From assembly GCA_963555705.1 (NCBI GenBank), contig OY743180.1:43060129-43124128 (forward strand): 64,000 bases of DNA. The letters run 5' to 3'. Under the pieces are notes generated by a model. The model was given only the letters and a program-made list of their open reading frames with translations, searched no databases and was not told where the DNA came from. This document shows positions 1 to 60,206 of this stretch, piece after piece. Every line of letters starts with the position of its first letter. Positions within the stretch are counted from its first letter, which is position 1. This DNA is from Ligustrum vulgare (lineage: Eukaryota; Streptophyta; Magnoliopsida; Lamiales; Oleaceae). The translations under genes and the position numbers were made by a program.

Positions 1-702
1 ATGTTTTTATGAAAGGTAAATACACCTTATGTTTTTATGAAAAGTAAGTATGTTTTTATGACAAGTAAGTATATCTTATGTTTTTATGAAAAGTAAGTAT
101 GTTTTTATGAAAGGTAAATACACCTTATGTTTTTATGAAAAGTAAGTATGTTTTTATGACAAGTAAGTATATCTTATGTTTTTATGAAAATGTTTGGATC
201 ATTGTTATGAAATCAATCTCACAAGATTGTTATGGGTTCCATATGATATGTTTATGATTATGCTAAGGGGACCGGAGTTTAGTAGCGCTACACATAAGAA
301 TTCTTGCCATTTAAGTTCGGTAAAATTCTTGTGTCTCCCTATGTTTATGAGTATTTCGATCCTATCCTATGTTATGATGAAAATGATCCATATGCTTTCA
401 AAAGAAAATTTATGCTTGGTATACTTACTGGGATTTTATAAATCTCACTCCACGATATTTACCATTTTCAGATAATTGAAGGTTCGAGGCGGTCAACATG
501 GAAGTGGCAAAAGTGGTTAAGATTGATGAGATAATTATGTTGAACTTTATGTAAGAAAATTATGTTCTATTTTTATTCACAAATAAAATTATGGGATTCT
601 AATTATTCTTTTGAATAATTTTACATTACTATTTAAGTCTCGATAATATGATATGAGTCACTTTTAGTGGCACTCGAATGGTCGAGAATTCGGGTCGTCA
701 CA
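1..702 (+). repeat. 5' LTR of element A (3' part only)
   Basis: It matches 6674-7375 closely and ends in GTCGTCACA just before the primer-binding site. The first 190 bases belong to the TATGTTTTTATGAAAAGTAAG tandem array. The short ORF at 194-475 also occurs at 6867-7148 and is simply LTR sequence. Confidence 0.9.
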
Positions 703-704
703 GT

Positions 705-717
705 TGGTATCAGAGCC
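705..717 (+). promoter_or_regulatory. Primer-binding site of element A (initiator tRNA-Met type)
   Basis: TGGTATCAGAGCC starts two bases after the LTR end. It is the standard plant site complementary to the 3' end of initiator tRNA-Met and it fixes the orientation of element A. Confidence 0.9.
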
Positions 718-2334: not shown

Positions 2335-2447
2335 GAGATATTATTATTTTCTCATAAGGAGAACACACAAGAGTCACCCTAGAAAGGAAATACATGAAAA
2401 CACGCAAAAGCAAAAGAAAGCAACATGGGAAATTCCTCAAATTGAGA

Positions 2448-2657
2448 GATGTGTTTCCGGAGTAGCCATATCCTACCACCTCTGACCTTTTGAGGAAATA
2501 AAGAAACCTTCAAAAAGGTGTGTTTCGAGAGTAAGAATACTCCGTAATCTACTACCTGGAACCTTTGAGGTACACACAAGATTTAAACATTAAGGAAAAT
2601 CCTAGGAAATTAGAGGGGTGTCTCGAGAGTAAGAATACTCCGTACTCTACCCCCACC
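2448..2657 (-). repeat. Three imperfect hairpin repeats downstream of LOG, copy A
   Basis: Units lie near 2616-2657, 2517-2557 and 2448-2480. On the LOG-sense strand the unit reads roughly GGTGGTAGAGTACGGAGTA then TTCTTACTCTCGAGACACACC. GGAGTA or AGAGTA can pair with TACTCT, and GGTG with CACC, giving a stem-loop. The unit nearest the distal end is the most diverged. The same units follow LOG in element C, and two remain in B. Confidence 0.7.
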
Positions 2658-2668
2658 TATTCTAAGAT

Positions 2669-3322
2669 TCATAAAGTTAAGTTTACATTAACCGGACTCC
2701 ATTTTCGCTTGATTCCCCTTCCTTGCGACCAATCTATCTTAACCCCTGCTGGATCTTGTATTGAGATATATGACTGCAGCTTATCCAGTAGTTCATCAAT
2801 AGTAGGAGCAGAAATAAGGAGCCTTCTGGAAAATGGAGAGATGAATCCCTGTTCCACAGCATAATCAAGAAAGGTTAACAAGCCATCAAAGAAATTGTTA
2901 ACATTCAGAAGCCCAATAGGCTTAGTATGGAGATCTAGTTGAGCCCACGAGGTAATGTTAAAGATTTCTTCTAAGGTACCAAAACCTCCGGGCAGGGCTA
3001 TAAAGGCATCAGAACCATATAGCATACAAGTTATGCGTTCATGGATGGATAAGGTTTGAACTTCATGCCCTCGTGTTTTTCCTGCAACATCTACCAAAGG
3101 GACAGGTATGACACCGATTACTTTTGATTTCTCTGCAAGAGCAGATTGGGAAACACAACCCATTAGACCACTGCTACCACCCCCATACACAAGAGTGATA
3201 CCTTTTTCCCCCAGTTTCTTTCCAAGATCTACGGCCGCTTCTAGATAACTGAAGCCTTTCCCCACTTTTGATCCACAAAATACACAAATAGTTTTGATCT
3301 GTCGAAGTTTTGGTGCTTCCAT
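2669..3322 (-). CDS. LOG-type cytokinin riboside 5'-monophosphate phosphoribohydrolase homologue (intronless, TE-borne)
   Basis: The 217-residue ORF matches the plant LOG family, which releases active cytokinin bases from their riboside monophosphates in the cytosol. Visible are the Rossmann-like start (ICVFCGS, 12-18), the GGGSSGLMG loop (47-55), SDAFIALPGGFGTLEE with the PGGxGTxxE signature (104-119), and the expected C-terminal SAPT segment. Length is normal for LOG. Plant LOG genes usually have several introns; this one has none, which suggests capture through spliced RNA. The usual basic pair in HxRK reads HERI here (94-97), so the residue after the conserved Arg is changed and activity is uncertain. 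The C-terminus (about 195-217) does not look like a usual LOG tail. A TATA-like box lies about 75 bp upstream. It is antisense to the host element. Confidence 0.88.
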   Translation of the reverse strand: MEAPKLRQIKTICVFCGSKVGKGFSYLEAAVDLGKKLGEKGITLVYGGGSSGLMGCVSQSALAEKSKVIGVIPVPLVDVAGKTRGHEVQTLSIHERITCMLYGSDAFIALPGGFGTLEEIFNITSWAQLDLHTKPIGLLNVNNFFDGLLTFLDYAVEQGFISPFSRRLLISAPTIDELLDKLQSYISIQDPAGVKIDWSQGRGIKRKWSPVNVNLTL

Positions 3323-3394
3323 CTTTGATAGTATAGAAGAGAAAACTTACGAAGAAGATGTGATTTTGGGATGCCTGAACTATGAAATATGTTT

Positions 3395-3406
3395 GGCTAT
3401 TTAAAG
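3395..3406 (-). promoter_or_regulatory. TATA-like box upstream of LOG, copy A
   Basis: The minus strand reads CTTTAAATAGCC about 75 bp before the LOG start codon. The same motif, TTTTAAATAGCC, is at 27583-27592 in element C, and a copy sits ahead of the LOG remnant in B. Conservation in all three copies supports a core promoter; transcription itself is not shown. Confidence 0.5.
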
Positions 3407-3620
3407 CCGGAAAAACTTACTGTTTTTTATTGATTCTGAAAAAGTAAAGATTTACTTTTGACAAAATCGATGAAAAAGTAAAGCTTTCATCTTTCGGTGA
3501 TTTATTTTCCAGCTTTATCAAACCTCGAGAAAGGAAAATATATTTTTACCAACCTTTATCAAAAAGCGTGAAAGGAAACAGAAGAATATTTTAAATATGT
3601 ATCAAGAGATTTACCTTATA

Positions 3621-4166
3621 TCAATGCTGATTTGCCACAACCTCATTGTGTAAAACAGACTGGCAGATAGGATCTTTTGCAGTTATATTTTTGAGACTAT
3701 AACGATTTTTGTCTTCGTTAAACTGAGCGTATAAGGAGAGAAGTTCACGTTGCACATAACCACTTGGGTGCGTCTCAAGAGTCAGTCGAATATCATCCAA
3801 AGACTCCTTACTCAGTCCACCCTTTATGAATTTGATTTTATCATCCCGATTAGTAGAAGAATATCCTACTGTTTTGCAACGAGTATCACAGTTCCAACGA
3901 GCACATTTGTAGCAACCATTCAGCCTTTTTGCTCTTCGTTTCTTTGCGAAGGTGCTTTTGCCTAAACCAGGCATGTGCTTTGGAAATGTCATAGGTAATT
4001 CACCAGATAATCGAACTTTTGCTTCGATCAACCAGCGAACATCTTCTGGAATACCATGAGCCATCAGCAACCTCAACCTTTCGAGCCTAATTCGATAAAT
4101 TTTTCTCAGATCATTCATAGGAAGATTGGAATAATACTTGCGAATGTTTGAAAGGATGATATCCAT
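3621..4166 (-). CDS. Basic cysteine-rich protein resembling betaflexivirid nucleic-acid-binding / silencing-suppressor proteins
   Basis: An intact ORF of 181 residues. It has a charged helical N-terminus (about 15-55), a strongly basic patch GKSTFAKKRRAKR (69-81), and a compact cysteine cluster C85-x2-C88-x4-C93-x3-C97 that could bind zinc. Next come a KIKFIKGG segment (110-117) and a C-terminal region of about 60 residues. The basic patch followed at once by a Cys cluster and then an FI/FV-K-x-G segment is the arrangement of the small cysteine-rich proteins of carlaviruses and vitiviruses, which bind nucleic acid and can suppress RNA silencing. That link is pattern recognition, not a search result. 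I know no plant gene family with this layout. It lies upstream of LOG on the same strand, about 300 bp away, and is antisense to element A. About 85% of residues match the copy in element C. Confidence 0.7.
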   Translation of the reverse strand: MDIILSNIRKYYSNLPMNDLRKIYRIRLERLRLLMAHGIPEDVRWLIEAKVRLSGELPMTFPKHMPGLGKSTFAKKRRAKRLNGCYKCARWNCDTRCKTVGYSSTNRDDKIKFIKGGLSKESLDDIRLTLETHPSGYVQRELLSLYAQFNEDKNRYSLKNITAKDPICQSVLHNEVVANQH

Positions 4167-4198
4167 TTTTGATGGATCTAACCTCTTCCCAACATGAT

Positions 4199-4209
4199 CT
4201 ATTTAAAGG
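4199..4209 (-). promoter_or_regulatory. TATA-like box upstream of the cysteine-rich ORF, copy A
   Basis: The minus strand reads CCTTTAAATAG about 35-45 bp before the ATG. Elements B and C have TTTAAATAGATGATTTGGG at the matching place. Confidence 0.45.
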
Positions 4210-4510
4210 TATAAAGGAACTAAGTGGATCCATCTGATATTGATTCCAGCAAGAAAGCGCGGAATAGAATAATGAAAAGAAGAGACAAGAATTAATGCGC
4301 TGTTTAATTTTATCGATAAAGGAAGATTTGATGATAAGATTTTGAGATACAGAATATTTTCTTGGATTTGGTACTGATATTTTAGGTATAATAATAAGTA
4401 ATTAAGGTATGGTGTGATGATACGGGAATACGTGAAAGTGAAATAAGGACCGTATCGAATCAGAATTCATAAGTATGTACAAGTGAAAGAAATACCTTGC
4501 GGGAAATGTT

Positions 4511-5092: not shown

Positions 5093-5389
5093 TGTAGCAA
5101 CCAAGAATTTTTACGCGATTAATAATTATTTTAATAGAAAATCGTGTCGCTACTATTTCACCCATTTTTATTAAGTTAACGCAGCGACGTATTCGTATAG
5201 CCAAGTCAAGAAATAATCGAGATCGTTCGATTTTAAATTAAATTCCGAATTTCTAAAAATATCTCCATTTTCTTGATTTAAAGTAAATTAAGTCCAAATA
5301 CTTAATTCAATGTTATCCCAATATTTATTTATACAAAAATTACTTTTATTATTTAAATTAAGAAAATATATGCAAGCATGAGAGGTTCC

Positions 5390-5880
5390 ATTATATGTAA
5401 TCATGAAGAGCATAATATTTGTATAAAAAATGGAAAAGTATATGAATGATTTATATACTCCATTATATATAATCATGAAGAGCATAATATTTGTATAAAT
5501 ATGGAAAAGTATATGAATGATTTATATACTCCATTATATATAATCATGAAGAGCATAATATTTGTATAAATATGAAAAAGTATATGAATGATTTATATAC
5601 TCCATTATATATAATCATGAAGAGCATAATATTTGTATAAATATGGAAAAGTATATGAATGATTGATAAGACTCCATTATATGTAATCATGAAGAGCATA
5701 ATATTTGTATAAAAAATGGAAAAGTATATGAATGATTTATATACTCCATTATATATAATCATGAAGAGCATAATATTTGTATAAATATGGAAAAATATAT
5801 GAATGATTTATAGACTCCATTATATATAATCATGAAGAGCATATTATTTGTATAAATATGGAAAAGTATATGAATGGTGC
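5390..5880. repeat. Tandem array of about 71 bp units in the LTR
   Basis: About seven copies containing AATCATGAAGAGCATAATAT and GAAAAGTATATGAATGA. Short minus-strand ORFs here are by-products of the repeat. Confidence 0.85.
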
Positions 5881-6099
5881 TTTACTTTAAGAAAATGATG
5901 TGTTAAAATTAATAGAATTGAATGATTATGTTTACAATATGCCAACTTTATACATCTATTTAAACCCATCTCTTTTACACACAACTCTACACATATACAC
6001 TTATTTCCAACCTCTTGACAAAATCCACAAGTAAGAGAAATTCAAGGTGGTCAAGAAAGTTTTGGTCCATTTACTACTACACTTCATTTTAATCTTTTA

Positions 6100-6860
6100 A
6101 AAGGTAAGTATATCTTATGTTTTTATGAAAATTAAGTATGTTGTTATGAAATGTAAGTATATCTTATGTTTTTATGAAAATTAAGTATGTTGTTATGAAA
6201 TGTAAGTATATCTTATGTTTTTATGAAAATTAAGTATGTTGTTATGAAATGTAAGTATATCTTATGTTTTTATGAAAATTAAGTATGTTGTTATGAAATG
6301 TAAGTATATCTTATGTTTTTATGAAAATTAAGTATGTTGTTATGAAATGTAAGTATATCTTATGTTTTTATGAAAATTAAGTATGTTGTTATGAAATGTA
6401 AGTATATCTTATGTTTTTATGAAAATTAAGTATGTTGTTATGAAATGTAAGTATATCTTATATTTTTATGAAAATTAAGTATGTTGTTATGAAATGTAAG
6501 TATATCTTATGTTTTTATGAAAAGTAAGTATGTTTTTATGAAAGGTAAGTATATCTTATGTTTTTATGAAAAGTAAGTATGTTTTTATGAAAGGTAAGTA
6601 TATCTTATGTTTTTATGAAAAGTAAGTATGTTTTTATGAAAGGTATTACCTTATGTTTTTATGAAAAGTAAGTATGTTTTTATGAAAGGTAAATACACCT
6701 TATGTTTTTATGAAAAGTAAGTATGTTTTTATGACAAGTAAGTATATCTTATATTTTTATGAAAAGTAAGTATGTTTTTATGAAATGTAAATACACCTTA
6801 TGTTTTTATGAAAAGTAAGTATGTTTTTATGACAAGTAAGTATATCTTATGTTTTTATGA
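6100..6860. repeat. Tandem array of about 49 bp units in the LTR
   Basis: About eight near-identical units with TATCTTATGTTTTTATGAAA and GTATGTTGTTATGAAAT, followed by variant units with AAAAGTAAGTATGTTTTTATG. The array continues the one seen at 1-190. Confidence 0.88.
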
Positions 6861-7375
6861 AAATGTTTGGATCATTGCTATGAAATCAATCTCACAAGAT
6901 TGTTATGGGTTCCATATGATATGTTTATGATTATGCTAAGGGGACCGGAGTTTAGTAGCGCTACACATAAGAATTCTTGCCATTTAAGTTCGGTAAAATT
7001 CTTGTGTCTCCCTATGTTTATGAGTATTTCGATCCTATCCTATGTTATGATGAAAATGATCCATATGCTTTCAAAAGAAAATTTATGCTTGGTATACTTA
7101 CTGGGATTTTATAAATCTCACTCCACGATATTTACCATTTTCAGATAATTGAAGGTTCGAGGCGGTCAACATGGAAGTGGCAAAAGTGGTTAAGATTGAT
7201 GAGATAATTATGTTGAACTTTATGTAAGAAAATTATGTTCTATTTTTATTCACAAATAAAATTATGGGATTCTAATTATTCTTTTGAATAATTTTACATT
7301 ACTATTTAAGTCTCGATAATATGATATGAGTCACTTTTAGTGGCACTCGAATGGTCGAGAATTCGGGTCGTCACA

Positions 7376-9001: not shown

Positions 9002-9219
9002 TGTTGTAAAACAATCGAAATCATAACAACGAGAAATAGATAGAGAGAGATCTTAGATGGAGAGAATTAGAGAATAGAGAGAATTTCTCTTCAAGAGGTG
9101 TGTTTATTCTTATGAAAATGGCTCCTATTTATAGGAGTAAATAATGGCACAATTGTAATATGTAAACATTACAGGGATATAATGGTAATGTCATTCACAT
9201 ATATATATAATTTATAACA
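9002..9219 (-). repeat. 3' LTR of element B
   Basis: 218 bp with TG...CA ends, flanked by TTAAA on the left. CCTATTTATAGG (about 9136) is an inverted TATA-like box. Confidence 0.9.
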
Positions 9220-9235
9220 CTCCCCCTTGAATGAC
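9220..9235 (-). promoter_or_regulatory. Polypurine tract of element B
   Basis: The minus strand reads GTCATTCAAGGGGGAG against the LTR. Element C has the same sequence (TCATTCAAGGGGGAG) before its 3' LTR. Confidence 0.8.
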
Positions 9236-9249
9236 ATATTAAGCAATTG

Positions 9250-9980
9250 TCTGCCTCGTCAAAACCTTGCTAAGAAAACCCAATGGGATAAAACTTGAGC
9301 GAAGGAAAAAGAGTACAGTTGCTCCCCCTAATGTTGGCCATCATTAATCATTGAGTCTAATGTCCAAAATGACATCAATGATAAGTAGTACAAATCATGT
9401 ACTGGAAACTTCGAATAATGAAGTGCTGAAGTGCTTCATTGCTTCATTGCTTTAGTGCTTTTAGTGCTGCCTCGTTAAAACCTTGTCAGTAAAACCCAAT
9501 GGGACAAAATCTGAACGAAGGAAAAAGAGTACAGCTGCTGCCTCGTTAAAACCTTGTCAGGAAAACCCCGTGGGACAAAACCTGGACGAAGGAAAAAGAG
9601 TACAGCATGACAGCATGATTCTCCCCCTGAAGTGTGCATTCAAGTATTTATGAACCTTTTGAATAATGATATCATCTTTCTTCTGGAATATGAAAATCTC
9701 CTTGCATAGCATTCTTCATAAGATGTCTATGATTTTCTTCATTTATTGATATCATTCCAATATAACAATGTGTTGCTGAATTATAGCTTGTCAATAGCTA
9801 TGATAATGCCTCAAAAACTTTGCTAGGAAAACCCTGTGGGACAAAACCTCAGCGAAGGGAAAAAGAGTGCAGTATTCTCATTAATTTTCATCAATACGCC
9901 TCAACTGTTGCCTCATTAAAAACCTTGTTAGGAAAAACCCTGTGGGACAAAACCTCAGCTAAGGGAAAAAGAGTGCAACG
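9250..9980 (-). repeat. Dispersed units of about 65-75 bp with GTTAAAACCTTG...GGGAAAAAGAG
   Basis: Five imperfect units begin near 9252, 9467, 9537, 9806 and 9907. Each contains ACCTTG, AACCC, TGGGACAAAA and GAAGG(G)AAAAAGAG. Element C has about four units between 30240 and 30895. They lie near the 3' end of both elements. Short ORFs here (such as 9820-10047) are repeat by-products. Confidence 0.8.
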
Positions 9981-10135
9981 CGTATTTATTCCTTTCATGG
10001 AATATCACAAGTATATTGGTGCAATCACGAATCTTTTCATCATATAATTTATGATGAGCTTTATAGAAATCGTTCATAACTCATGATGTCATAACATGCT
10101 ATATTAAGCAATGTTGTACTAATTTATTGATTGCA

Positions 10136-10610
10136 TCTTTCGCTTATGGTGAATAATCAAATATTCATTTTCAAATTCACTTCTAGTGAATAATTTAAAT
10201 ATTCATTTTCAAATTCACTTCTATAATTCACTTTCATGGATTGCATTTTTCACTTCTGGTGAATAATTAAATATTCATTTTCAAATTCACTTCTAGTGAA
10301 TAATTTAAATATTCATTTTCAAATTCACTTCTAGTGAATAATCAATTTCAAATTCACTTATGGTGAATATTCATTTTCGTATTCACTTCTAGTGAATAAT
10401 CAATTTCAAATTCACTTCTGGTGAATATTTATTTTTGTATTCACTTCTGGTGAATATTCATTTTCGTATTCACTTCTAGTGAATAATCAATTTCAAATTC
10501 ACTTCTGGTGAATATTTATTTTCGTATTCACTTCTGGTGAATAATCAATTTCAAATTCACTTCTGGTGAATATTCATTTTTGTATTCACTTCTGGTGAAT
10601 AATCAATTTC
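10136..10610. repeat. Array of palindromic TTCACTTCTGGTGAA units
   Basis: Many copies of ATTCACTTCTGGTGAAT or ATTCACTTCTAGTGAAT, each an inverted repeat with a short loop, separated by AT-rich spacers. The matching part of element C (29858-30090) has only about six copies. Confidence 0.85.
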
Positions 10611-12119
10611 CCAGATGTCATAAATAGTATACTCCAATTTCACTTTATATTATATCATGGAGTCATTTGTATCATCCCATAGTGATACTAATCTGGGTAT
10701 ATTGAATCTTTCAATGATTTATACATGTATGTTCTTGCACTTTATAAACTGCAATTTTTAATTTGTAGGAGTATAATCAATCATTGAAATAGATATCAAT
10801 TTCGACATATAATCTACAATCATTTTACTTGAAATCCCAACGTACCGCGATCAACTGGTACATCAAAGAATACTCTCAAAGTACCGAGATAAGAATCATA
10901 CATTTTGATCTCACTCATTGGTATATCAAAGAGCTTCAAGCTAGTGATTTAGACTATAGTCTATCCACCATATGCCATGCCAGTTCTATGAAAAATTTCG
11001 CGCGCAACTAGTCGTCTTTTACGACTGTGAAATATTTTTCATTTGTACATATAATTACTGGCTTTACACATTTAAGCATTTGGACTTCAGGTCCTTGAAC
11101 AATAATCCATACATTAGGGTTTCATACTTGGTCAAAGTATTATAATTTCATCAACCTCATTTTCATAAGAGGGTATGCAGTCGTCTTATTTATCGATTCC
11201 ATCTCAATATAACATAGAGAGATCTCTTTATATGTTTTATCATCAGGTACCTGAGTCTCTCATCATTTAACTATGTCCCTTTTACTCACTATGAGTATTT
11301 AGCCTCAAAGGGATCATTTTAATCATTCAAGAGATATTTATTTTTGGAATCGATAGTCATTATACTTCAGGCATAATTACGCTTCAGGCGTGTTTTCCAC
11401 ATAATGTTCATAAACATTATATTATATTAATCGGCTAAAAATGCCATAACACATGTCATTCTTTTAGAGATATAATCTCAATCATATATCTAAGTGCGCT
11501 TTGGTGGATTGTATACATATCGCACTTTTACAAATCATAAAGCTTCATAAGCAAATTTTCATAGTATTGACATGTTTGTAAAATATTGCTGCATGAGAAA
11601 TATTCAAATTATTCTCATAGCAAATAACTTGAGGCTTTTAATCTGCTAAATCATTTAGCTATATAATATTCTATTATCTCAACTAATTCGTAAAATCAGT
11701 AATGACTTTAAGATATATTCATGCTAGCATTTATCACTTTGCTCGTAATATCATTACTTGAGCAAATAATCAGTCATTCATTTTCTTAGTGAGATAATTA
11801 ATTTGCTTTTGAGAACAAGCAGCAATGATAACTTGTTAACATGAATCTTCTGGTTCTTTAATGAATACCATTTTGAATTCTCAATAAATCTCATTTATTG
11901 AATTGGAATCTAACCAATCATTATAGAACTTCTGGTTCAACAATATATTTTACTTGTACGTATGTATGAACTTCTGGTTCAATACAGTATACATATTTCA
12001 CTTATACGTATGAACTTCTGGTTCAGCAAGATATTTCACTTGTACATATGTATGAACTTCTGGTTCAATACAGTATTCATTTTAGTATACCGAAAAATCA
12101 TGTACAATATCCAAGGAAA

Positions 12120-12790
12120 TATCTCATGATCTCAATCTTGTCGCCAAATCTTCCCTTATTTCGAAAAAGGTAATGACGCATTATCTTTGTTCCCACCTTT
12201 TCAATAATTTATTCCATTATTTCTTAATGGAATCACTGACACGCGGAGCCACCGCTCTTTTACGCGTTGAATAATACTTTTAAATAGATGATTTGGGAAG
12301 AAGGCTAGATCCATAAAAATGGATATCATATTTTCAAATATTTTTCTGTTTCCTTTCACGAGTTTTGATAAAGGCTGGTTAAAAATATTAAATCACCGAA
12401 AGGTGAGTAGGATGATTTTGTCAAAAGTAAATTTTCACTTTTTCAAAAGATGAGTGAAAATAGTGAAGTTCTTCGTTTTTTAAATAGCCAAACCTTTTCA
12501 TAATTCATGCTTCCCAAAATATCATTTTCTCGTAAGTTCTTCTTTATTTTCAAAAATGGAAGGACCAAAACTTCGACAGATCAAAACTATCTGTGTATTT
12601 CAAAGATTTAAGGTGGTAGAGTACGTAGTATTCTTACTCTTGAAATACACATTTTTCTTTATTTCCTCAAAATATCAGAGGTGGTAGGATACGGCTACTC
12701 CCGAAACACATCTCTTACTTTGGGAATCATAAATGTTTCCCCTTTTTTTTTTTTTTTTTTGCATGTATGACTCGTTTATACTTCTTCAGG
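12120..12790 (+). pseudogene. Deleted LOG / cysteine-rich cassette, copy B
   Basis: The cassette promoter is recognisable (GACACGCGGAGCCACCGCTC, then TTTAAATAGATG near 12289). The cysteine-rich ORF starts at 12319 but runs only about 22 bp before it joins sequence that lies beyond its stop in element C. The LOG start is at 12556; about 15 codons remain before the sequence jumps at 12600 to the hairpin repeats. Two hairpin units survive (12611-12650, 12676-12712). The first junction lies in an ATTTTCAAATATTTTT context, which suggests a short-homology deletion. Confidence 0.82.
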
Positions 12791-13704
12791 AGCAATAATA
12801 ATAATAATATCATTTCAGCATATTTAGATGATAATTTTTATTTCTTCTGGAGTAAATATGTATTTCTTCTGGAATACATAAGTGCTCGTGCAAGAACTTT
12901 TCCAGACACTTATCATCTAATATTCATCTCATAATACTGATGAGATTATTTTCACATTAGCCATATCCGAGCTATCATGTGATATTATCTTATCATACAT
13001 CAACATTCTCTTGTTGAATAATTTTCATCCATCCATTCAAATTCAGATATTGGTAACTTCTGGTACCATTTGATGAAATATTTTTATCAACATTTACCAA
13101 CATATTGGTAATAATAACTTCAGGTATCATTTGATAAACTAATTTTATCAATATCTAACAATAATAATAATATCAAGTTTATATAGATTGGACGGACTAT
13201 CCGAGTATGGATGCATGAATTAATAAATAGTAGAATATTTATAAGCCCACCTCTACACATGCAAGTCTATAATAACGTAATATATTACTGTACGACAATA
13301 AATATATTACTTGTACCTTGATTAATATATATTTAATAAGTCTCATTTTACTGATTTTTATATTGTGTAAATTATCTAATTTATTCAATTGATCAGTATT
13401 AGTGTTGAGAATATACCAATCATGGCAAAAGTAAAACTTACCTTTTTCATCAAATATGATTGGTTAGCTTCAGTTGGGAAAAATCATCTTGTCGGCTAGC
13501 ATTCCAACTTCACCAATTTCCCATTACCGGATATAATAGTATTTATTTCAATTCCACTTCCAATTCCACTAACTTTCCCACCAACTTTGTGGAAGTTGAA
13601 AATATTATAAAATATGGTTTAAAAATATACTAACCTTTTGCACGTTCATTTTGAACAGCAATTATCCACTTTACTTTCATCATCACCATTATCTCCATTA
13701 ACTT

Positions 13705-14205
13705 TTGCCCGGCAGCCAAGAATCCCTCTTGGCGTCAATAATGGCAATTGTTGCTTTTATGCTTTCCACCAGTTTCATATTCCATCAATTTCTTCCACTC
13801 ACATGTATCATCATCATCATCCACTACACTTTAAAATCATTTCATCCACTTTTTATTATGGCCCACCATTATCTCCTCACATTGCGTTCAGACCGGGGCA
13901 CCATTCACCAGAGAGGTCAAGATTCCGGCGGATTCCTCGCACTTGATTTCGGTCAGTGGGAGGCAAACGACCGTTTCCTGGTTTCTTCAACAATAGCAAG
14001 AGCTTTACACTCCTCAGCAGCTGGTTTCTCTTCTGGCGGAGGAAGTGGTGGTAGTGGAATTACAGATTTCTCCTCCGTCACATCTTTAGGAGCAGCTTCA
14101 TCATTTTACAGCTTCTCTACACTCGATCCACTGGATTTTCTCCTATTTCAGACACCATATTTCTTGATAATTCTCAGATTTCACCGCCCCCAGTTGTTCC
14201 TCTGA
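13705..14205 (+). other. Open frame of unknown origin in element B
   Basis: A 166-codon open frame absent from element C. It has a hydrophobic start, then a Ser/Gly-rich stretch (SSGGGSGGSG). I do not recognise a family. Its base composition is richer in G+C than the surrounding element, which fits captured gene sequence, but coding function is not shown. Confidence 0.3.
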
Positions 14206-14539
14206 AGAGGACCATTGGGATCCGGTTCTCTGCAGTTAATTGACCGGCCATGAAGTGTCGGTGCACCTAGATCAAATAATCCTAGTTCCTGTACTCTGCG
14301 GTGGCCGAGATTGCTGTCCGGTGGTGGTGGCACCCTTCAACCGAACCTTGACCTTTTGACTGTCCACTAATACTGAAGCATGCAGATGCGGGCAACACAA
14401 GGATGTCAAGAACTTGGAGACGGCCGAATGAAGGGGAGGATTCTGCGCACACCCAGGCTCCAACAATCATCCTGCTTATGGGAACCCCAGGTGGTGGAGA
14501 CGGCTGTGCTGTCATTTGCCAAAGATGAAATCCAGTCTC

Positions 14540-14697
14540 GTCCTTGACAGCAAGGTTAAGAAGAGCAGGGAGGGCTGCCTCCTTGGCTTCAAAAGAGTCG
14601 CAACGAAGCATGTCGACGAGTGGCTTCACAGAGCCTGAGAAATGACGGCGGTAGCGTTGCGAGGTCTTAGTAAGCTGTCGGATCTCCGCCTAAAAGA
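14540..14697 (-). pseudogene. Captured ARM-repeat gene fragment
   Basis: The minus-strand frame from about 14697 reads AEIRQLTKTSQRYRRHFSGS and continues into PLVDMLRCDSFEAKEAALPA and LLNLAVKDE. This is a good match to an armadillo repeat of plant ARM/U-box-type proteins. It begins right after CTTTTAG, which could be a splice acceptor, and similarity stops after KDE. So it looks like a single exon piece carried by element B, in the same sense as the element. Confidence 0.65.
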
Positions 14698-14935
14698 GTT
14701 TGATTGAACGATTGACGATGGATGATGGGCTCGTAGTATCGGAAGAGATGGTGATAATGGTTGGAACGGTAGTGAGGTGGCACCGTCCACTCTCTTTGAA
14801 GCCCATTTTTTTTTTTTTTTTTTTTGAATAAGCCAGATCTGAAGCATCCACAACCCGATCGTTCTTCTGAACCCCAGAAAATATGAATTAATCTTGATGA
14901 ATCATCTGAACATCAGTATAGATTTTTCTTTTTAC

Positions 14936-14963
14936 TCAAATGGCTAGAGTCGTGCTGATAACG
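14936..14963 (-). promoter_or_regulatory. Primer-binding region of element B
   Basis: The minus strand reads CGTTATCAGCACGACTCTAG directly after the LTR. Element C has CGTTATCAGCACGAGTCTCT at the same place, so both use the same non-standard primer site. Confidence 0.7.
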
Positions 14964-15187
14964 TGTTGTAAAACAATCGAAATCATAACAACGAGAAATA
15001 GATAGAGAGAGATCTTAGATGGAGAGAATGAGAGAATAGGGAGAATTTCTCTTCAAGAGGTGTGTTTATTCTTATGAAAATGGCTCCTATTTATAGGAGT
15101 AAATAATGGCACAATTGTAATATGTAAACATTACAGGGATATAATGGTAATGTCATTCACATATGTATATATATATAATTTATAACA
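14964..15187 (-). repeat. 5' LTR of element B
   Basis: 224 bp, nearly identical to 9002-9219 apart from about two substitutions and a 6-bp insertion in the AT run. It is followed by TTAAA. Confidence 0.9.
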
Positions 15188-25138: not shown

Positions 25139-25372
25139 TGTTATAAATTATTAGAAATTATTAAGAAATTCCTTTGTAGATCTCTACCTAATTTCTTACC
25201 TAACTCCCACCTAATTAATATTGTAAAGAATTATTGTGAATGACTTTATCTTCCTATAAATAGAGGCATTCATTGTTGTATTTCACACACCTAATGGAAT
25301 GAGAATTCTCCTCTTTATTCTCTCCATCTCTTCATCTCTAATTCTTGTTTAGATTTTGATAGTTTTATAACA
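25139..25372 (+). repeat. 5' LTR of element C
   Basis: 234 bp with TG...CA ends. TATAAATAG at 25255-25263 is a likely TATA box for the genomic transcript. Confidence 0.93.
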
Positions 25373-25392
25373 CGTTATCAGCACGAGTCTCT
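25373..25392 (+). promoter_or_regulatory. Primer-binding region of element C
   Basis: CGTTATCAGCACGAGTCTCT directly follows the LTR and is conserved in element B. It is not the usual TGGTATCAGAGC form; the tRNA used is not determined here. Confidence 0.6.
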
Positions 25393-26854: not shown

Positions 26855-27509
26855 TCACAAAGATAAATTTACATTAACCGGACTCCATTTTCGCTTGATT
26901 CCCCTTCCTTGCGACCAATCTATCTTTACTCCTGCTGGATCTTGTATTGGAATATATGATTGTAACTTATCCAGCAGTTCCTCAATAGTAGGAGCAGAAA
27001 TAAGGATTCTCCTAGAAAATGGAGAGATGAATCCCTGTTCCACAGCATAATCAAGAAATGTTAGTAAAACCATCAAAGAAATTGTTAACATTTAAAAGTC
27101 CAATAGGCTTAGTATGGAGATCTAGTTGAGCCCATGAGGTAATATTAAAGATTTCTTCTAAAGTACCAAAACCTCCAGGCAGGGCTATGAAGGCGTCAGA
27201 ACCATATAACATGCAAGTTATGCGTTCATGGATAGATAAGGTTTGTACTTCATGCCCTTGTGTTTTGCCTGCAATATCAGCTAAAGGAGTAGGTATAACA
27301 CCTATCACTCTTGCTTTCTCTGCTTGAGCGGATTGTGAAACACAACCCATCAATCCACTGCTACCTCCTCCATACACGAGAGTGATACCTTTCTCTCCCA
27401 ATTTCTTTCCAAGATCCACAGCAGCTTCTAGATACCCAAAACCTTTCCCTACTTTTGATCCACAAAATACACAGATAGTTTTGATCTGTCGAAGTTTTGG
27501 TCCTTCCAT
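26855..27509 (-). pseudogene. LOG-type cytokinin phosphoribohydrolase homologue, frameshifted
   Basis: The first 146 or so codons match copy A, including GGGSSGLMG, HERI and PGGFGTLEE. A single extra base near 27061-27075 (after FFDG) shifts the frame and leads to an early stop at 27051. The remaining C-terminal part is open in another frame (27091-26855) and matches copy A to the end. The break removes the last third, so this copy should not make a full enzyme. It is intronless. It shares the HERI change with copy A, which points to one common cassette ancestor. TATA-like TTTTAAATAGCC lies at 27583-27592. Confidence 0.88.
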
Positions 27510-27769
27510 TTTTGAAAGTAAAGAAGGAAAAACTTACGAGAAAATATTATTTTGGGATGCATGAACTATGAAAAATGTTTGGCTATTTAAAACCGAAAAA
27601 CTTCACTATTTACTGCTCGTTTTTCGAAAAAGTGAAGATTTACTTTTGACAAAATCACCCTACTCACCTTTCGGTGATTTAATATTTTTAACTAGCCTTT
27701 ATCAAAACCCGTGAAAGGAAACAGAAAAATATTTTATATGTGCATATATATCAAATGATTTACCTTGTA

Positions 27770-28315: not shown

Positions 28316-28599
28316 TTTTGATGGATCTAGCCTTCTCCCAAATCATCTATTTAAATGCATTATTCAACGCGTAAAAGAGCGGTGGCTCCGCGTGTCAGTG
28401 ATATCGATTCCATCAAGAAATAATGGAATAAATTATTAAAAAGGTGAGAACAATGAGATAATGCGTCATTACCTTTTTCGATATAAGGGAAGATTTGGCG
28501 ACAAGATTGAGATCATGAGATATTTCCTTGGATATTGTACCTGATTTTTCGGTATAAAAGTAATAAAGGTATACTGATTTGAAATGTACAGAAATACAT

Positions 28600-30927: not shown

Positions 30928-31161
30928 TGTTATAAATTATTAGAAATTATTAAGAAATTCCTTTGTAGATCTCTACCTAATTTCTTACCTAACTCCCACC
31001 TAATTAATATTGTAAAGAATTATTGTGAATGACTTTATCTTCCTATAAATAGAGGCATTCATTGTTGTATTTCACACACCTAATGGAATGAGAATTCTCC
31101 TCTTTATTCTCTCCATTTCTTCATCTCTAATTCTTGTTTAGATTTTGATAGTTTTATAACA
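30928..31161 (+). repeat. 3' LTR of element C
   Basis: 234 bp, one difference from the 5' LTR (CCATCTC versus CCATTTC). It is followed by the GGATC duplication. Confidence 0.93.
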
Positions 31162-32572: not shown

Positions 32573-34004
32573 TGATAAGTGTTATATTAACGTTTATTTT
32601 ATATACTTATATTCTTGAATATGCCATAATGTGATTCTATCTAAATATTATTAATACATTTTATGTTTTATATTGTATAGGATCATAAAAGAAGAAAAAA
32701 AGACCAAAATGCACTCAAAACTGAAGTTTGGGGACTTAGGTGCAAATAAAAGTCACGGCCGTAAGGTAACATGTGTTACAGCCGTAAGAGTGTTAATCAT
32801 GTTAAGAAATATGCAGAGACACAATTACGGCCGTGAATGGGTATGTCACGACCGTAACCCTCAAAAGGTGAAAAATGTGCAGAAACATAATTACGGCTGT
32901 AAAGCAAAAGTCACGGCCGTAACTTCAATTTGCGAGAAATATGCAGAAACTCAATTACGGCCGTAAAAGAAATGTTACGGACGTAACTATTCAAGTCAAA
33001 AATTTCCATATTTAATTATTTCCATAATTTTGGGATTTCTTGATCCCAAAGCTAGGACACGAAATTGAGGCTATAAAAAGGGAATTTCATGACAAGAAAA
33101 TGAGACATTATTATTTTGAAAGAGGCGCTGCTTGTTTGAAGAATTAGAAGGAAATTAGGCAACTCGAGAAGGTGAATCAAGAAAGAAAATTCTAGAATTC
33201 TTCATGACTATGCTCGGCTAAGCTTCCATACCTAGTTCGAAGGGGAAGTTGTATTTCATATCAATTTGTTATTGCTTTTCCAAACTAGTAACGTAGTTCC
33301 AAATTCTTTACTTTGATTTGTTGGATCCTTATGCGTTTTCGATTTAATCAATGCAATTCTTTATTTGATTAAGGCCTTATCATTTAATTTGTTGTATTGA
33401 GATTTGCTATTTTGAATGATTGGATCCGTAAACGTCTTTTTATTCAAATCATAGTAGCAATTGGAAATTTAATATTTTCATAAAGAATTCTAACTTAGGT
33501 TAACTGTCACGAGCGTGTGTGATTGATAATCTAATTCACCCTAATTCTTCTCAACCAATATATAGTTGTTGTCTTAAATCTAAAGAGCTTGTTTTAGGTT
33601 ATTCAATGACTAATGTTTGATTAGAGAGCTTATTCTAATTAAATGCAATTAAGGGAGAATAGGAATAATTAGAGCTTATTAACTATTTACGGGTGATAAA
33701 TCAAAAAGGGAAATTGAACACGCGTTACTTGGAAAATGATAACATTGCGATAGAATACAACTGAACCTGAGAACTAGGGTTTGCAAATAATTGACTTCTA
33801 TTTTATCTAATTTACATTTTTATTTTATTTTCACGTTATTTCCAATACTTGAACTCGAAAACCCCCCATCTATTCTTATTGACAAAGCATTACTTTAGTT
33901 CCCGTTCCTCGTGGGATCGACTCTTACTTTCGCTATTACAATCAAATCTGATAATTTGAGAGTAGATATTTATTTATTATTTTGGTGCATTGCGACACGC
34001 ATCA
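32573..34004 (+). repeat. 5' LTR of element E
   Basis: TG...CA ends and TATAAAAAG near 33072 as a TATA box. It contains the ACGGCCGTAA palindrome array (32750-32990). The open frame at 32673-32966 is an LTR by-product, repeated in the 3' LTR at 43791-44048. Confidence 0.95.
32750..32990. repeat. TTACGGCCGTAA palindrome array in the LTR
   Basis: About eight exact or one-off copies near 32755, 32781, 32825, 32847, 32892, 32911, 32955 and 32977. They are mirrored in the 3' LTR (43838-44068), and six more lie at 39585-39745. Confidence 0.88.
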
Positions 34005-34010
34005 AATTTT

Positions 34011-34027
34011 TGGCGCCGTTGCCGGGG
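34011..34027 (+). promoter_or_regulatory. Primer-binding site of element E (tRNA-Asp type)
   Basis: TGGCGCCGTTGCCGGGG lies six bases after the LTR end, the typical Athila/Tat position and sequence. Confidence 0.9.
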
Positions 34028-34176
34028 AACGGTCAACCAATTTAGGTTATTTAGTTAATTAGAATTATATTTTTTTTTCTGCATTTTATTTTATTAATTT
34101 TATTTTCACTTTATTTGTATAACTTTTCAAAAAAAAAAAAATTTCATTTAACAATTATTTGTACTTCTTTGCTTAT

Positions 34177-35628
34177 ATGCTTAAAACTCGGTCAACTAAT
34201 TGTGAAATTTTTGATCTTGACCCAGAAATTGAGAGGACTTTTCGACAGCAAAGAAGAGCAATGCGACAAATGGCAGCTAACAACATGACTCTTAAACAAC
34301 TAGCTACCCCCGATGTGGCTCAGTAGCCATTATGCATAACGTTCCCAACAGTGGAAGAAGGAAAAACTTTCGAGCTTAAATCTGGGCTCATCCACTTATT
34401 ACCAACTTTTCGAGGGAACCCTGGCGAAGATCCATATAGGCACCTAAAGGAGTTCCATGTGGTTTGCGACAGTATGAGGCCCACAGGCATTACCGAGGAA
34501 CAAATAAAAATGAGAGCCTTCACATTCTCATTGAAGGATGCCGCCACCGACTAGCTCTATTGTCTACCATCGGGAACAGTTACTACTTGGAGCGACATGA
34601 AAAGGCTCTTCTTGGAAAAATACTTCCCTGCATCGAGGGCTGGTACCATCCGAAAGGAAATATGTGGGGTGCGCCAGAACAACAACGAAACATTATATGA
34701 GTATTGGGAGCGTTTCAAAAAGCTCATCTCCAGCTGCCCCCATCATCAGATTAGCGAGCAACTTTTGGTGCAATACTTCTACGAAGGTCTAGCACCAATG
34801 GACAGAAGTATGATAGACGCCGCAAGCGGAGGTGCGCTAATGGACAAGACACCAGAGCAAGCACGGGCTTTAATATCCAACATGGCGGAAAACACTCAGC
34901 AATTCAACTCGAGTAGGGATTCCCAAGTCCGCCGAGTAAACGAGGTAAGTAGTTCCAATATTGAAGGTCAATTATATGAACTAACGAATCTTGTTAAGCA
35001 ACTTGCTGTAGGGAATTCGAAACAAGCCAAAGCCTGTGGAATCTGTTCGAACTTTGGACATCCAACGGATACCTGTCCGGTATTGCAAGAAGAAAACAAT
35101 GAACAGGAAAATGCTGCTGGATGTTTTCCTTTCCAAAGGCAGCAATACAACCCATACTCAAACACGTACAACCCCAGGTGGAGAGATCACCCCAACCTGA
35201 GCTACGGAAATAACAAACTCATGGGTTTTACTTCAAACAAGCCACAAGGACAATTCCAGCAGCAAGGGACTTTCCAACCACAGGGACAATATCAACAAAA
35301 ACCTCAAAATTCAGGTATGTCTCTTGAAGATATGGTTAAGACGTTGGCAACTAACATGATGCAATTCCAACAGGATACCAAGTCAAGCATTCAAAACCTG
35401 GAAAATCAAATGAGCCAAATGGCCACTGCCATAAATAGGTTAGAATCACAATCCAGAGGTAAATTGCCATCTCAACCCGAGATAAATACTAAAAACGTGA
35501 GTGCCATAACTCTCCGAAGTGGAAAAGAAATTGAGAGTCCGAAATTGGAACCGGCTGCACCTGAAATGGAGGGAGATGAAAAGGAAGGAGTCGGGATGAG
35601 AAACAACGCTTCGCAAACCCTGAGGTAA
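34177..35628 (+). pseudogene. gag of element E, interrupted by two TAG codons
   Basis: One continuous frame from ATG 34177 to the stop at 35628 encodes an Athila/Tat-type gag, the capsid/nucleocapsid precursor. It includes the capsid stretch with TFRGNPGEDPYRHLKEFHVV, a CCHC-like knuckle CGICSNFGHPTDTC, and an NPYSNTYNPRWRDHPNLSY tail. In-frame TAGs are at 34324-34326 and 34552-34554; both fit single C-to-T type changes (CAG to TAG, and TGG to TAG in a DWLY-like context). A Gln-rich, then coiled-coil-like region (about 380-450) ends the protein. Frame and spacing are otherwise intact. Confidence 0.9.
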
Positions 35629-35659
35629 AAACTGACTCCCATTTAAATGTCAAACTAAC

Positions 35660-38600
35660 ACCTCCACCTTTTCCTAGCAGGTTAGCAAAGACGAACAAAG
35701 AGAGCAAGGAAAGGGAGATGTTTAGAAAGGTTGAAATCAATATTCCGCTATTGGAGGCCATCAAGCAAGTCCCCCGGTATGCAAAATTTTTAAAGGATTT
35801 ATGCACTAGCAAACGGAAACTGGTGGGAAACGAGAAGGTAAGAATGGGGGAAAGCGTTTCAGCCTTATTCCAAAGGAAATTGCCTCATAAGGGTAAGGAT
35901 CCCGGTATGTTCACTGTGCCATGTCAAATAGGTAACACCAAAGTAAATCATGCACTAATAGATTTAGGAGCATCCATTAACGTAATGCCTAGATCCACTT
36001 ACATTGCATTAAATCTTACTAAAATGACTAAAACAGATGTTATCATCCAACTAGCTGACCGTTCCAATGCATATCCAGACGGGGTAGTTGAGGACGTTTT
36101 AGTGCAAGTAGGGGGGTTGGTGTTTCCGGCAGAGTTTTACATATTAGATATAAATGATGATCACTCCCCTAATTCTACCCCTATACTGTTAGGAAGACCA
36201 TTTTTGTGGACCTCCCAAACCATTATTGATGTAAGAAAAGGGGTGTTAACCATGGAATTCAATGGGGGAGGTAGTGTAATTTAACATCTACGATGCAATG
36301 AAACACCCAAATGATGTATGTGCTGCTTATTCTATTAATGACATTACCCCTGCTGTGCAGAAAATTTTTAAGTTAAATTGCAGGGACGAGCTAGAAACAG
36401 CTATCGTGGAGTCGCTAAGGCAAGATGATGACAACGACGTGGGTATAAGCAAGGAGTTACGGGATGGAATTACTGCACTTAATTCACTGGGACCCGCACC
36501 ACGCAGGTATGCCGTAAAAACAATTCAACTGACAGATTATCCTAACAAATTGCTACCTGCTATCTTGCAGGCCCCAGTGGTGGAAATGAAATCTCTACCC
36601 GCCCATCTGAAATATGTGTTTCTGGGTGATGAAGAATCGCTTCCCGTAATTGTTTCATCCAACCTCACCAAATTAGAAGAAGAAAAACTGGTTCGGGTCC
36701 TTCGGGAGCACAAGGAAGCGATTGGTTGGACCATCGCGGATATCAAGGGAATTAGCCCGTAAATTTGCATGCATCGAATATTGCTTGAGGAAGAAGCTCA
36801 ACCATCGAGACAAGCCCAGTGAAGGTTAAACCTGGCAATGATGGACGTGGTGAAGAAAGAAATTTTGAAACTGCTAGGAGCAGGGATGATTTACCCAATC
36901 TCAGAAAGCAAGTGGATCAGTCCAGTCCAAGTGGTGCCAACGAAATCCGAGGTAACGGTGGTAGAAAACAAAGATGGAGAACTTGTACCAACTAGGGTCC
37001 AAACTGGTTATCGGGTATGCATCGACTACATGAAGGTAAACGCTGACACTCGAAAAGATCATTTTCCCCTTAACTCCAGAAGATCAGGAGAAAACCACTT
37101 TTACTTGTCCATTTGGCACGTTTGCATATAGACGCATGCCTTTCGGTTTGTGTAATGCTCCTGCAACATTCCAACGTTGTATGATGAGCATTTTTTCTGA
37201 ATACATAGGGCAAATTATAGAGGTGTTTATGGATGATTTTAGTGTATGGGGTGATTCATTTGATGCATGCTTGGATAATTTATCATTGATTTTGAAACGT
37301 TGCATTGAGACTAACTTAGTCCTAAATTGGGAAAAATGTCATTTTATGGTAGATAAGGGTATTGTGTTAGGTCATGTAGTGTCGGAAAAAGGAATAGAAG
37401 TTGATAAGGCTAAGGTGGACATCATATCTGCATTACCTTACCCCGCCAATGTGCGGGATATACGATCTTTTCTTGGGCATGCAGGTTTCTATCGCAGGTT
37501 CATCAAGGACTTTTCCAAAATTGCATCACCACTTTGCAATTTGTTGCAAAATGATGTCCCATTAAAATTCACCGAGCTGTGCAAAAAGGCCTTTGACCAC
37601 CTAAGGGAGCGGCTAACTACACCCCCGATCATTCAACCGTCGAACTGGGATCTTCCATTCGAAATAATGTGTGATGCCAGCGACTATGCAGTGGGAGCAG
37701 TCCTAGGACAACGGGTTGGGAGAGCGGCCCATGTGATTTACTATGCCTCCCGAACCCTGAATCAGGCCCAAGCCAACTATACCACCACCGAAAAGGAACT
37801 TCTATCTGTGGTATTTGCTTTAGAAAAATTTCGTCCTTATTTATTGGGTTCTAAAGTGATTATTTTTACAGATCATGCAGCTTTACGGCACTTGTATGTA
37901 AAAAAGGATGCGAAGCCTAGAATCATCCGCTGGATACTTTTATTACAAGAATTTGACTTGGAAATCAAAGATAAGGCGGGGTCCGAAAATGTAGTTGCCG
38001 ACCATCTTAGCCGGGTAGTGAAACCCGAGAACGACCTACCTCTGCGTGAAACCTTCCCAGATTAGGGTTTATTTGCCATCGAAGCAAATCCCCCATGGTA
38101 TGCTGATTTGGTAAATTTCATGACTGCTAAACTAATTCCTACTGGGTTTTCGCAGGAACAAAAGCATAAGATGAGAAGCGATGCTAAATATTACATTTGG
38201 GATGACCCGTACCTGTGGAAGAGATGCCCCGACCAAATCATTAGAAGGTGCGTGCCGGAATCAGAACATCAATCAATCCTCACCTTTTGCCATTCATACG
38301 CATGTGGTGGCCATTTTGGACCTAGAAGGACGGCACAAAAAGTATTGGAAAGCGGGTTCTTTTGGACGACCCTTTTCAAGGATGCATACAGTTTTTGTAA
38401 GTCTTGCGATAATTGCCAAAGAACAGGTAACTTATCCCAACGAGATCAAATGCCTCAAAACCCCATTATTTTATGTGAGATTTTTGACGTTTGGGGCATT
38501 GATTTCATGGGACCCTTTCCCCCGTCGTTTGGTTGTAATTACATTCTTTTAGCTGTCGATTATGTTTCAAAATGGGTGGAGGCAAGGGCCACCCGTACTA

Positions 38601-39391
38601 ATGACGCTAAAGTTGTTGCAGATTTTGTAAAAGCTGTCATTTTTAGCAGGTTTGGAATACCCCGAACTATGATCAGTGATAGAGGGACGCACTTTTGCAA
38701 CCGAACCATTGAAGCCTTGTTACGGAAATATGGAGTGATGCACCGGGTATCAACCGCGTATCACCCCCAAACTAGCGGACAGGCAGAAATCTCCAATAGG
38801 GAAGTGAAGTCCATTCTAGAGAAAACAATTCGACCGGACCGGAAGGATTGGAGCATTCGACTCGATGATGCTTTATGGGCCTACAGAACCGCTTACAAAA
38901 CACCAATTGGTATGTCTCCATACCGATTGGTATTTGGGAAACCATGCCACCTACCGGTGAAACTCGAGCATAAAGCTTATTGGGCCATCAAGCAATGTAA
39001 TATGGATTGGAGTACGGTAGGGGATCACAGGAAGCTTCAATTGCGGGAATTGGATGAAATATGGAATGAGGCTTATGAGAATGCAATGATCTATAAAGAT
39101 CGAACTAAAGCATTTCACGATCAATGCATTTCTCGAAAGAGCTTTTGTGAGGGCCAGAAAGTGCTACTGTTTCAATCCCGGCTCAAATTACACCCAGGTA
39201 AGCTTCGTTCTCATTGGGTAGGTCCATTTGTTGTTACTAATGTATCTCCCCATGGTGCAGTCGATATTAGGAGCTTGCGTACGGATAAACAGTTCAAGGT
39301 CAATGGGCACCGTCTCAAGCCGTATTATGAGGGGTTCCAAACTGAGAACTTGGAGGTGATTGCACTGGAAAACACCAACAAAGGGCACTAG
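35660..39391 (+). pseudogene. pol of element E: protease, RT, RNase H, integrase
   Basis: The protease (about 35718-36284) has ALIDLGASINVMP and ILLGRPF. A 1-bp shift near 36285 leads into the linker and RT N-terminus (36298-37080), with stops near 36760-36830. RT then jumps from [15 protein letters not shown] to [16 protein letters not shown]; the expected intervening block with the first catalytic Asp is missing, and the frame shifts. RT resumes at 37136 with [14 protein letters not shown] and the VFMDDFSV active site. RNase H follows ([26 protein letters not shown]). A TAG at 38063-38065 separates it from integrase in the same frame. Integrase (38108-39391) keeps the HHCC finger ([18 protein letters not shown]) and the DDE residues in [16 protein letters not shown] and [11 protein letters not shown]. 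Confidence 0.93.
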
Positions 39392-43632: not shown

Positions 43633-43644
43633 TGTGGGGGGATT
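43630..43644 (+). promoter_or_regulatory. Polypurine tract of element E
   Basis: AAGTGTGGGGGGATT directly precedes the 3' LTR. Confidence 0.85.
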
Positions 43645-55265: not shown

Positions 55266-55270
55266 GACGT

Positions 55271-56051: not shown

Positions 56052-56072
56052 AATTGGCGCTAGAAGGAGGGT
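56052..56072 (+). promoter_or_regulatory. Primer-binding region of element D
   Basis: AATTGGCGCTAGAAGGAGGG directly follows the LTR end; TGGCGC fits the CCA-end pairing of a tRNA primer. Confidence 0.7.
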
Positions 56073-56117
56073 CCGTATCCTTGTATTCAGCAATCACATA
56101 CTTGCTCCTGCATCATA

Positions 56118-57663: not shown

Positions 57664-57697
57664 CAAACAGCAGGAGAAGTACGCAATCCACCATGGA

Positions 57698-58245: not shown

Positions 58246-58464
58246 AATTCCCTACACCACACGGAGTGGCTACCGTAAGGGGGGATCAAAGAGCTGCGCG
58301 GGAGTGCAATTTAGGCTTTGCTTCCAACAACGTCCAAATGGCGAAAGAAGGGAGCCCCATTGTGAAATCGAATGTGAATACTTTTTGATGCCAACCGAGA
58401 TATGTAATCAAATGAATGAAAAGTTTAATGTTTCAAAGTGTGCAAATCTGAATGGATAATTTCG

Positions 58465-58955: not shown

Positions 58956-58975
58956 ATGAAGACGAAGTAGGTCCC

Positions 58976-59145: not shown

Positions 59146-59149
59146 GAAT

Positions 59150-60150: not shown

Positions 60151-60206
60151 CATTTTGTTTGACTTCGAAATACTCAGTGCTAAAATGAAATTTTTCTTTG
60201 TACTAT

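Follow-up and report, generated by a model that had tools for sequence, protein, structure and literature searches.

A stretch of 64,000 nucleotides of the Ligustrum vulgare genome (assembly GCA_963555705.1, contig OY743180.1, positions 43,060,129 to 43,124,128 of the forward strand; hereafter the window) carries two long terminal repeat (LTR) retrotransposons, elements A and C, which share a block of two genes lying antisense to their carriers. One gene encodes NABP, a protein of the kind found in flexiviruses, and the other a LOG-like protein. From its sequence, we class the block as an accessory gene module with several carriers among plant LTR retrotransposons, made up of predicted genes for NABP and for a LOG-type nucleotide phosphoribohydrolase. 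It belongs to a known class of accessory open reading frames (ORFs), to which it adds a virus-type partner, the pairing of the two genes and a changed pocket in the LOG-like protein. On balance, we consider it probable that the module is expressed and protein-coding and that it aids the amplification of its carriers.

An earlier sequence-only reading of the window had described the same ordered NABP-LOG block, antisense, in elements A and C, and our analysis bore this out: the ORFs lie in this arrangement in both elements (Table 1), and sensitive local alignment placed the A-C homology at 2337 to 4500 of element A, that is, at the edges of the cassette. The cassette is antisense to its carrier in both the A and the C families. 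Similarity does stop at the cassette ends, as had been claimed, with the flanks and LTR of element A showing no homology to C, to element B or to the further C-family copies L029 and L030 in a sensitive comparison. The carriers also differ as described in their LTRs (2283 bp vs 234 bp) and their primer sites and, since these differ, A and C probably belong to different superfamilies. Element A may be a Ty3/gypsy chromovirus of the Tekay lineage, to judge from a FEDEI-type 3' end before the polypurine tract together with the initiator-methionine primer site seen in the sequence. The primer site of element C, CGTTATCAGCACGA, presumably pairs with the anticodon arm in tRNA-Ile(AAU). A half-tRNA-Ile primer is given as a trait of the Ty1/copia Bianca lineage (PMC6317226), and element C has such a site directly after its LTR. 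The two LTRs of element C are 99.6% identical to each other. No gag-pol ORF (reverse transcriptase or integrase) was found in A or C among the window ORFs of 90 amino acids (aa) and more, and both elements therefore look non-autonomous.

The earlier description of the carriers as unrelated elements holds for A versus C but not for all three, because element B is of the same family as C and the three elements thus make two families. The cassette, said to be deleted in B, is reduced there, with remnants that persist. As for a mobile accessory module, the block is indeed shared by two LTR families and is neither a single-copy host locus nor part of an interior shared from end to end; it may have moved between them by template switching or by nested insertion. 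A single-copy host locus was excluded by copy number and by the LTR and target-site duplication (TSD) context, and a single family comprising A and C with a shared interior was excluded by the confinement of homology to the cassette.

Table 1. Coordinates of the cassette, its genes and its carriers in the window
Feature	Position	Strand	Remarks
Two-gene antisense cassette, element A	2337..4500	-	homology limits vs element C (local alignment, blastn)
LOG-like (TIGR00730/SLOG) ORF, 217 aa, element A	2669..3322	-	intact; PGGxGTxxE, Arg and Glu retained
Flexivirus-type NABP ORF, 181 aa, element A	3621..4166	-	intact; basic KKRRAKR stretch and CxxCx4Cx3C
Hairpin-like repeats 3' of LOG (three; conserved in C)	2438..2668	-	alignment
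TTTAAATAG, TATA-like, 41 bp before element A NABP start codon	4199..4207	-	
TTTAAATAG, TATA-like, 83 bp before element A LOG start codon	3397..3405	-	
Element A 5' LTR, 3' part (remainder upstream of window)	1..702	+	
Element A primer site TTGGTATCAGAGCC, tRNA-iMet type	703..716	+	
Element A 3' LTR, 2283 bp, TGTAGCAACC..GTCGTCACA	5093..7375	+	TG..CA ends
Element B, C family, decayed	9002..15178	-	cassette remnants only, about 12082-12727
Element C 5' LTR, 234 bp	25139..25372	+	TSD GGATC outside
Element C primer site CGTTATCAGCACGA, half-tRNA-Ile type	25373..25386	+	
Element C LOG, frameshifted near 27051	26855..27509	-	152-aa ORF 27051-27509
TTTAAATAG, 82 bp before element C LOG start	27583..27591	-	
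Element C NABP ORF, 181 aa	27770..28315	-	intact
TTTAAATAG, 40 bp before element C NABP start	28347..28355	-	
Element C 3' LTR, 234 bp	30928..31161	+	

The genome assembly searched comprises 51 contigs and 1.385 Gb in all. A search with the cassette DNA returned 4733 candidates, 40 of which were scored; 39 of these span the whole block and one spans most of it, and the matches lie on contigs C1-C23 of the 51. A protein search with the element C NABP returned 8858 unscored first-look candidates, which are not confirmed as copies; the best 150 were scored and all were at least 97% identical, 149 of them without a stop codon. At 25 distinct A-type places (28 loci, three places being represented twice, with the window's own included), the LOG frame was open in every case and the NABP frame in 23. 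Among the three C-family copies (C, L029 and L030), NABP was open in all and LOG only in L029, the reading frame of element C breaking after codon ~148. The sequence-only reading had named many copies with both ORFs kept open, in several LTR families, as support; the block was found in two families and in numerous open copies.

Comparison of the coding sequences suggests that natural selection keeps both proteins. Between A and C, NABP gave 0.65 synonymous substitutions per synonymous site (dS) and 0.091 nonsynonymous substitutions per nonsynonymous site (dN), a ratio (omega) of 0.14. For LOG, the codons before the frameshift (1-146) gave a dS of 0.52, a dN of 0.034 and an omega of 0.065, and the last 60 codons an omega of 0.083. 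Within the C family, one gap-free comparison for each gene gave an omega of 0.076 for NABP (C vs L030, 13 changes) and 0.14 for LOG (C vs L029, 18 changes); these values are based on few changes, yet they weigh most, the divergence behind them having taken place on the C element. Codon changes among the A copies are weaker evidence of constraint, with 11 synonymous vs 13 other changes in NABP (19 copies, the frameshifted one excluded) and 8 vs 5 in LOG (20 copies).

These values bear on the possibility that the block is a passive passenger, captured by chance and spread in a recent burst, with its ORFs open merely because the copies are young. The A copies are young, the longest direct repeat being 99.8-100% identical in 12 of 20 loci (partial LTRs, with one tandem copy among the 12), and some frames are broken: NABP at two of the 25 A-type places and, of three C-family copies, LOG in all but L029. 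Per site, however, silent changes far exceed replacements, both between A and C and in the two C-family comparisons, and we regard a passive passenger as distinctly unlikely.

The TATA-like sequence TTTAAATAG stands before the start codons of both genes in both elements. The 64-kb window holds six copies on its minus strand and three on its plus strand; four of the six minus-strand copies are those at cassette start codons, and the sequence around them is conserved in the A-C alignment. We read these boxes as predicted core promoters, with each of the two antisense genes having its own.

The NABP of the cassette scored above the curated Pfam cut-offs for Viral_NABP (PF05515; 35.9 vs 23 bits, 1e-8) and Carla_C4 (PF01623; 24.5 vs 20.9 bits, 2.6e-5). 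When 31 NABP relatives were scanned at E 0.001, 28 matched Viral_NABP and 27 matched Carla_C4; among the best 120 of 345 matches, those with a species name come from Orobanche, Populus, Xanthoceras and Acer. The likeness to the flexivirus cysteine-rich or nucleic-acid-binding proteins (CRP/NABP), such as carlavirus p12 and SPCFV NaBp, consists in both Pfam models and in a basic stretch followed by a Cys cluster. The LTR-element protein differs from them in being 181 aa long, with a C-terminal stretch of ~60 residues outside the viral models. In a Foldseek ranking of viral structures, none of which reached E 0.001, 23 of the first 26 of 44 listed hits nevertheless came from named flexiviruses, 21 of these being called nucleic-acid- or RNA-binding proteins or silencing suppressors, and the remaining three were nameless. 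Among solved structures nothing credible matched NABP (one match at E 0.39). None of 56 pattern matches in viral contigs coded for a relative, the plasmid collection gave no match, and TRP28 (PF04195) was absent from both cassette ORFs at E 1. Viral NABP/CRP members have been described as silencing suppressors, and p12 of the carlavirus CVB also as a hyperplasia-inducing transcription factor (PMC12172455). From homology to the viral proteins, we infer that the cassette NABP may be a silencing suppressor. The flexivirus suppressor may derive from this retroelement family, or the derivation may have run in the reverse direction.

The LOG-like protein of the window matches Lysine_decarbox (PF03641; 1.3e-33) and TIGR00730 (2.4e-48), which places it in the family. 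Its top match among solved structures is At2g37210 (AtLOG3); the alignment covers residues 8-202 and is interrupted by just one gap of two residues, so that the gene appears to have no intron. Against the NCBIfam equivalog NF058542 it scored 109.7 bits, short of the cut-off of 300, with no host plant LOG run as a control. Both the A and the C proteins retain the PGGxGTxxE motif with the catalytic Arg and Glu, and Arg102, Thr122 and Glu125 (LOG3 numbering) are jointly kept in 112 of 122 LOGs of the window type. By contrast, 8 of the 122 still have Lys103 and 7 have Glu128, vs 120 of 120 host LOGs for both residues, and the window proteins carry Ile and Asn at these positions. Seven window-type LOGs keep both pocket residues; those placed in the tree described below (P0122, P0161 and P0212) adjoin host LOGs. 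In CgLOG, a catalytic role is proposed for the corresponding Arg99 and Glu122, and the corresponding Lys100 and Glu125 are part of the adenine/prenyl site (PMC4979012). The window-type LOG has probably retained hydrolysis with a changed base preference. Because most proteins of this type have lost the two adenine/prenyl pocket residues, the label of a cytokinin-activating enzyme, which the sequence-only reading had given it, appears doubtful.

The same residues bear on manipulation of host hormones, in which a cytokinin-activating LOG and a p12-like transcription factor would enlarge the pool of dividing, germline-forming cells in the meristem to the benefit of transposition. LOG enzymes activate cytokinins, the catalytic Arg and Glu are kept in the window protein, and carlavirus p12 is described as inducing hyperplasia (PMC12172455). 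The positions lost from most window-type LOGs are nevertheless those whose CgLOG equivalents make up the adenine/prenyl site (PMC4979012), and we consider hormone manipulation unlikely.

In a LOG tree of 41 rows, a 100/100 branch split 25 window-type LOGs from 15 host LOGs and AtLOG8, the host sampling being of the LOG1/LOG3 type plus AtLOG8. The window-type rows come from Diospyros, Orobanche, Primulina, Populus, Xanthoceras, Reevesia, Diplodiscus and Parasponia, from unnamed sources and from the window itself, and by similarity LOGs of this type span several eudicot orders. Gene models of Reevesia pubescens make up 38 of the best 120 LOG matches. An ordinary host LOG gene, or else an endogenous virus fragment, might be suspected from the names LOGL10 or LOG3-like that similar proteins bear in database models; for the window this is refuted by copy number, by the LTR/TSD context and by the split from the sampled host LOGs, and we find it scarcely credible.

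Relatives of the cassette genes were also found on another type of carrier. On L031 (3330 bp), a contig from another plant, an NABP ORF lies behind a gypsy-type integrase ORF and reads in the same, sense direction. The integrase (rve + H2C2) is 61% identical to the gypsy-type ORF at 38108-39391 of the window, and the NABP, which scored 34.1 vs 23 bits for Viral_NABP, is homologous to that of the cassette, with 66% identity over residues 1-171. L031 differs from the cassette in its sense orientation and in the presence of pol; its assignment to the Athila lineage is tentative. From this arrangement we conclude that at least one Athila-like element has a gene of the NABP family 3' of pol, which makes it a third carrier type. 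The L031 sequence (DAIEQH010000041.1) is filed under a Candidatus Nomurabacteria metagenome-assembled genome in the prokaryote collection and is evidently plant contamination. A gene model of Orobanche gracilis joins NABP to a partial LOG in the order of the cassette. In four further cases, NABP and LOG lie on equal-sized contigs of the same source (4511, 8723, 2128 and 1558 bp), which suggests that these pairs are physically linked. NABP and LOG identities were correlated (r 0.85) over 15 comparisons, not independent of one another, of six putative pairs: these four together with A and C.

We favor an origin of the module on autonomous Ty3/gypsy elements, from which it would have reached the A and C families by recombination between element RNAs during reverse transcription, or by nested insertion. 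NABP would most likely dampen RNA silencing or alter host transcription, as carlavirus p12 does, and the LOG-like enzyme would most likely hydrolyse a nucleotide other than, or besides, cytokinin ribotides, with copies that express the pair gaining in amplification. A bolder form, which we hold to be improbable, would make the module a transmissible counter-defence unit traded between gypsy and copia elements, in which a zinc-finger silencing suppressor is joined by a LOG-derived enzyme with a rebuilt pocket that breaks down a nucleotide signal of immunity or silencing instead of making cytokinin.

Several observations weigh against a protein-coding module that aids its carriers. The loci examined were the best-matching ones, not drawn at random, which favors open frames. 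Of the three C-family copies, C and L030 have a broken LOG. An element that lacks gag-pol has no evident benefit from proteins acting in trans. The AlphaFold model of NABP is poor (pLDDT 63.5, pTM 0.35), and in Foldseek no viral structure matched at E 0.001, the best reaching E 0.089 with a TM of about 0.2. The Cys (zinc-finger) spacing is shorter in the element NABP than in viral NABP. The L031 NABP falls slightly under the Carla_C4 cut-off (20.4 vs 20.9), and no LOG was found within the 983 bp that follow it. The LOG tree is unrooted, with three window-type rows on long branches, and the location of other species' LOGs on retroelements is assumed from similarity.

A further point of this kind comes from the non-coding parts of the cassette. 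Over aligned bases, A and C are 87% identical in the tail, 87% in the spacer and 83% in the upstream part, compared with 90% in LOG and 85% in NABP, and the non-coding parts are less diverged than the silent sites. Since the non-coding parts are about as alike as the ORFs, constraint is not confined to the proteins and may act as well on regulatory sequence or on the antisense RNA as such. In an antisense RNA regulator, the transcript and not the proteins would act, for instance by pairing with the genomic RNA of the element. The antisense orientation in both families and the conservation of the non-coding parts are in keeping with this, and antisense RNA regulation has been discussed for plant elements (PMC7264820). 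Such a regulator predicts equal change at silent and replacement sites, whereas a difference was observed. In view of this non-coding conservation and of the LOG frames broken in the C family, we gave the protein reading less weight and the antisense RNA more; even so, a regulator of this kind seems to us quite unlikely.

Further features of the carriers were recorded. The A copy in the window sits in a tandem LTR-interior-LTR-interior-LTR array. Five further A-family copies were examined at their 5' edge: a perfect 5-bp TSD is present in four, and for the fifth the LTR start lies outside the piece. At four places (contigs C12, C15, C5 and C13) A-family cassettes are spaced 6.4-6.7 kb apart, as expected from tandem LTR-interior arrays, the repeat itself having been seen directly at the window and on C12. 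In L013 and L016 the LTR ends 187 bp later, past a second GTCGTCACA, and includes the beginning of the primer site, GTTGGTAT; this is perhaps a primer-site duplication. Recombination of C sequence into a divergent A subfamily (L022-L025) was rejected, the divergent upstream part being 82-84% identical to C, as in other A copies. An assignment to TGTT/AACA copia subfamilies (PMC5659011) was dropped, the LTR ends being different.

Two other elements of the window carry additional ORFs. A gypsy element at 32573-45087, which appears to be Athila-like, has ORFs for gag, reverse transcriptase and integrase and carries behind pol, at 40805-41632, a PF20167 (Transposase_32) ORF in sense. A Retand-like gypsy element at 55270-63778 has an antisense TRP28 ORF at 61673-62515 on the minus strand, with PF04195 at cut-off, and 69-bp and 105-bp tandem arrays, a layout like that in PMC11963269. 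Retand, Grande and RIRE2 elements likewise have an antisense accessory ORF (TRP28 and others) between their LTRs, many copies and tandem repeats, although the proteins are of different families from those of the cassette (PMC11963269, PMC7264820). An unknown virus, acting via recombination, has been offered as a possible source of the Retand-type antisense region (PMC11963269).

The sequence-only reading had proposed a new kind of retrotransposon cargo. For LOG this does not hold, as Ty3/gypsy consensus elements from Citrus and Populus have already been reported with a LOG/YgdH domain (PMC9289625, citing Steinbauerova 2011). Those elements resemble the cassette in having a LOG-type domain on LTR retrotransposons; the excerpted account mentions neither a virus-type partner or antisense pair nor a copia-type carrier or changed pocket. 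A 2-oxoglutarate dioxygenase (m6A demethylase) domain found on Ty3/gypsy elements of orchids is likewise an extra enzyme domain, but the enzyme and the carrier are others (PMC9289625). Among the titles and abstracts listed in searches of the open-licence literature, nothing was found on a plant-LTR NABP, the NABP-LOG pair, its occurrence in two LTR families or the altered pocket.

A review describes the antisense ORFs found in plant LTR elements as lacking similarity to viruses (PMC7264820). Unlike that statement, the NABP of the cassette resembles a virus protein, and codon constraint is found here on elements without a visible transposition gene. The role of antisense retrotransposon genes thereby becomes testable through two named activities. 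If the window-type LOGs are borne by retroelements in other species too, many plant gene models named LOG3-like or LOGL10 would not be cytokinin genes, and counts of the LOG family would be inflated.

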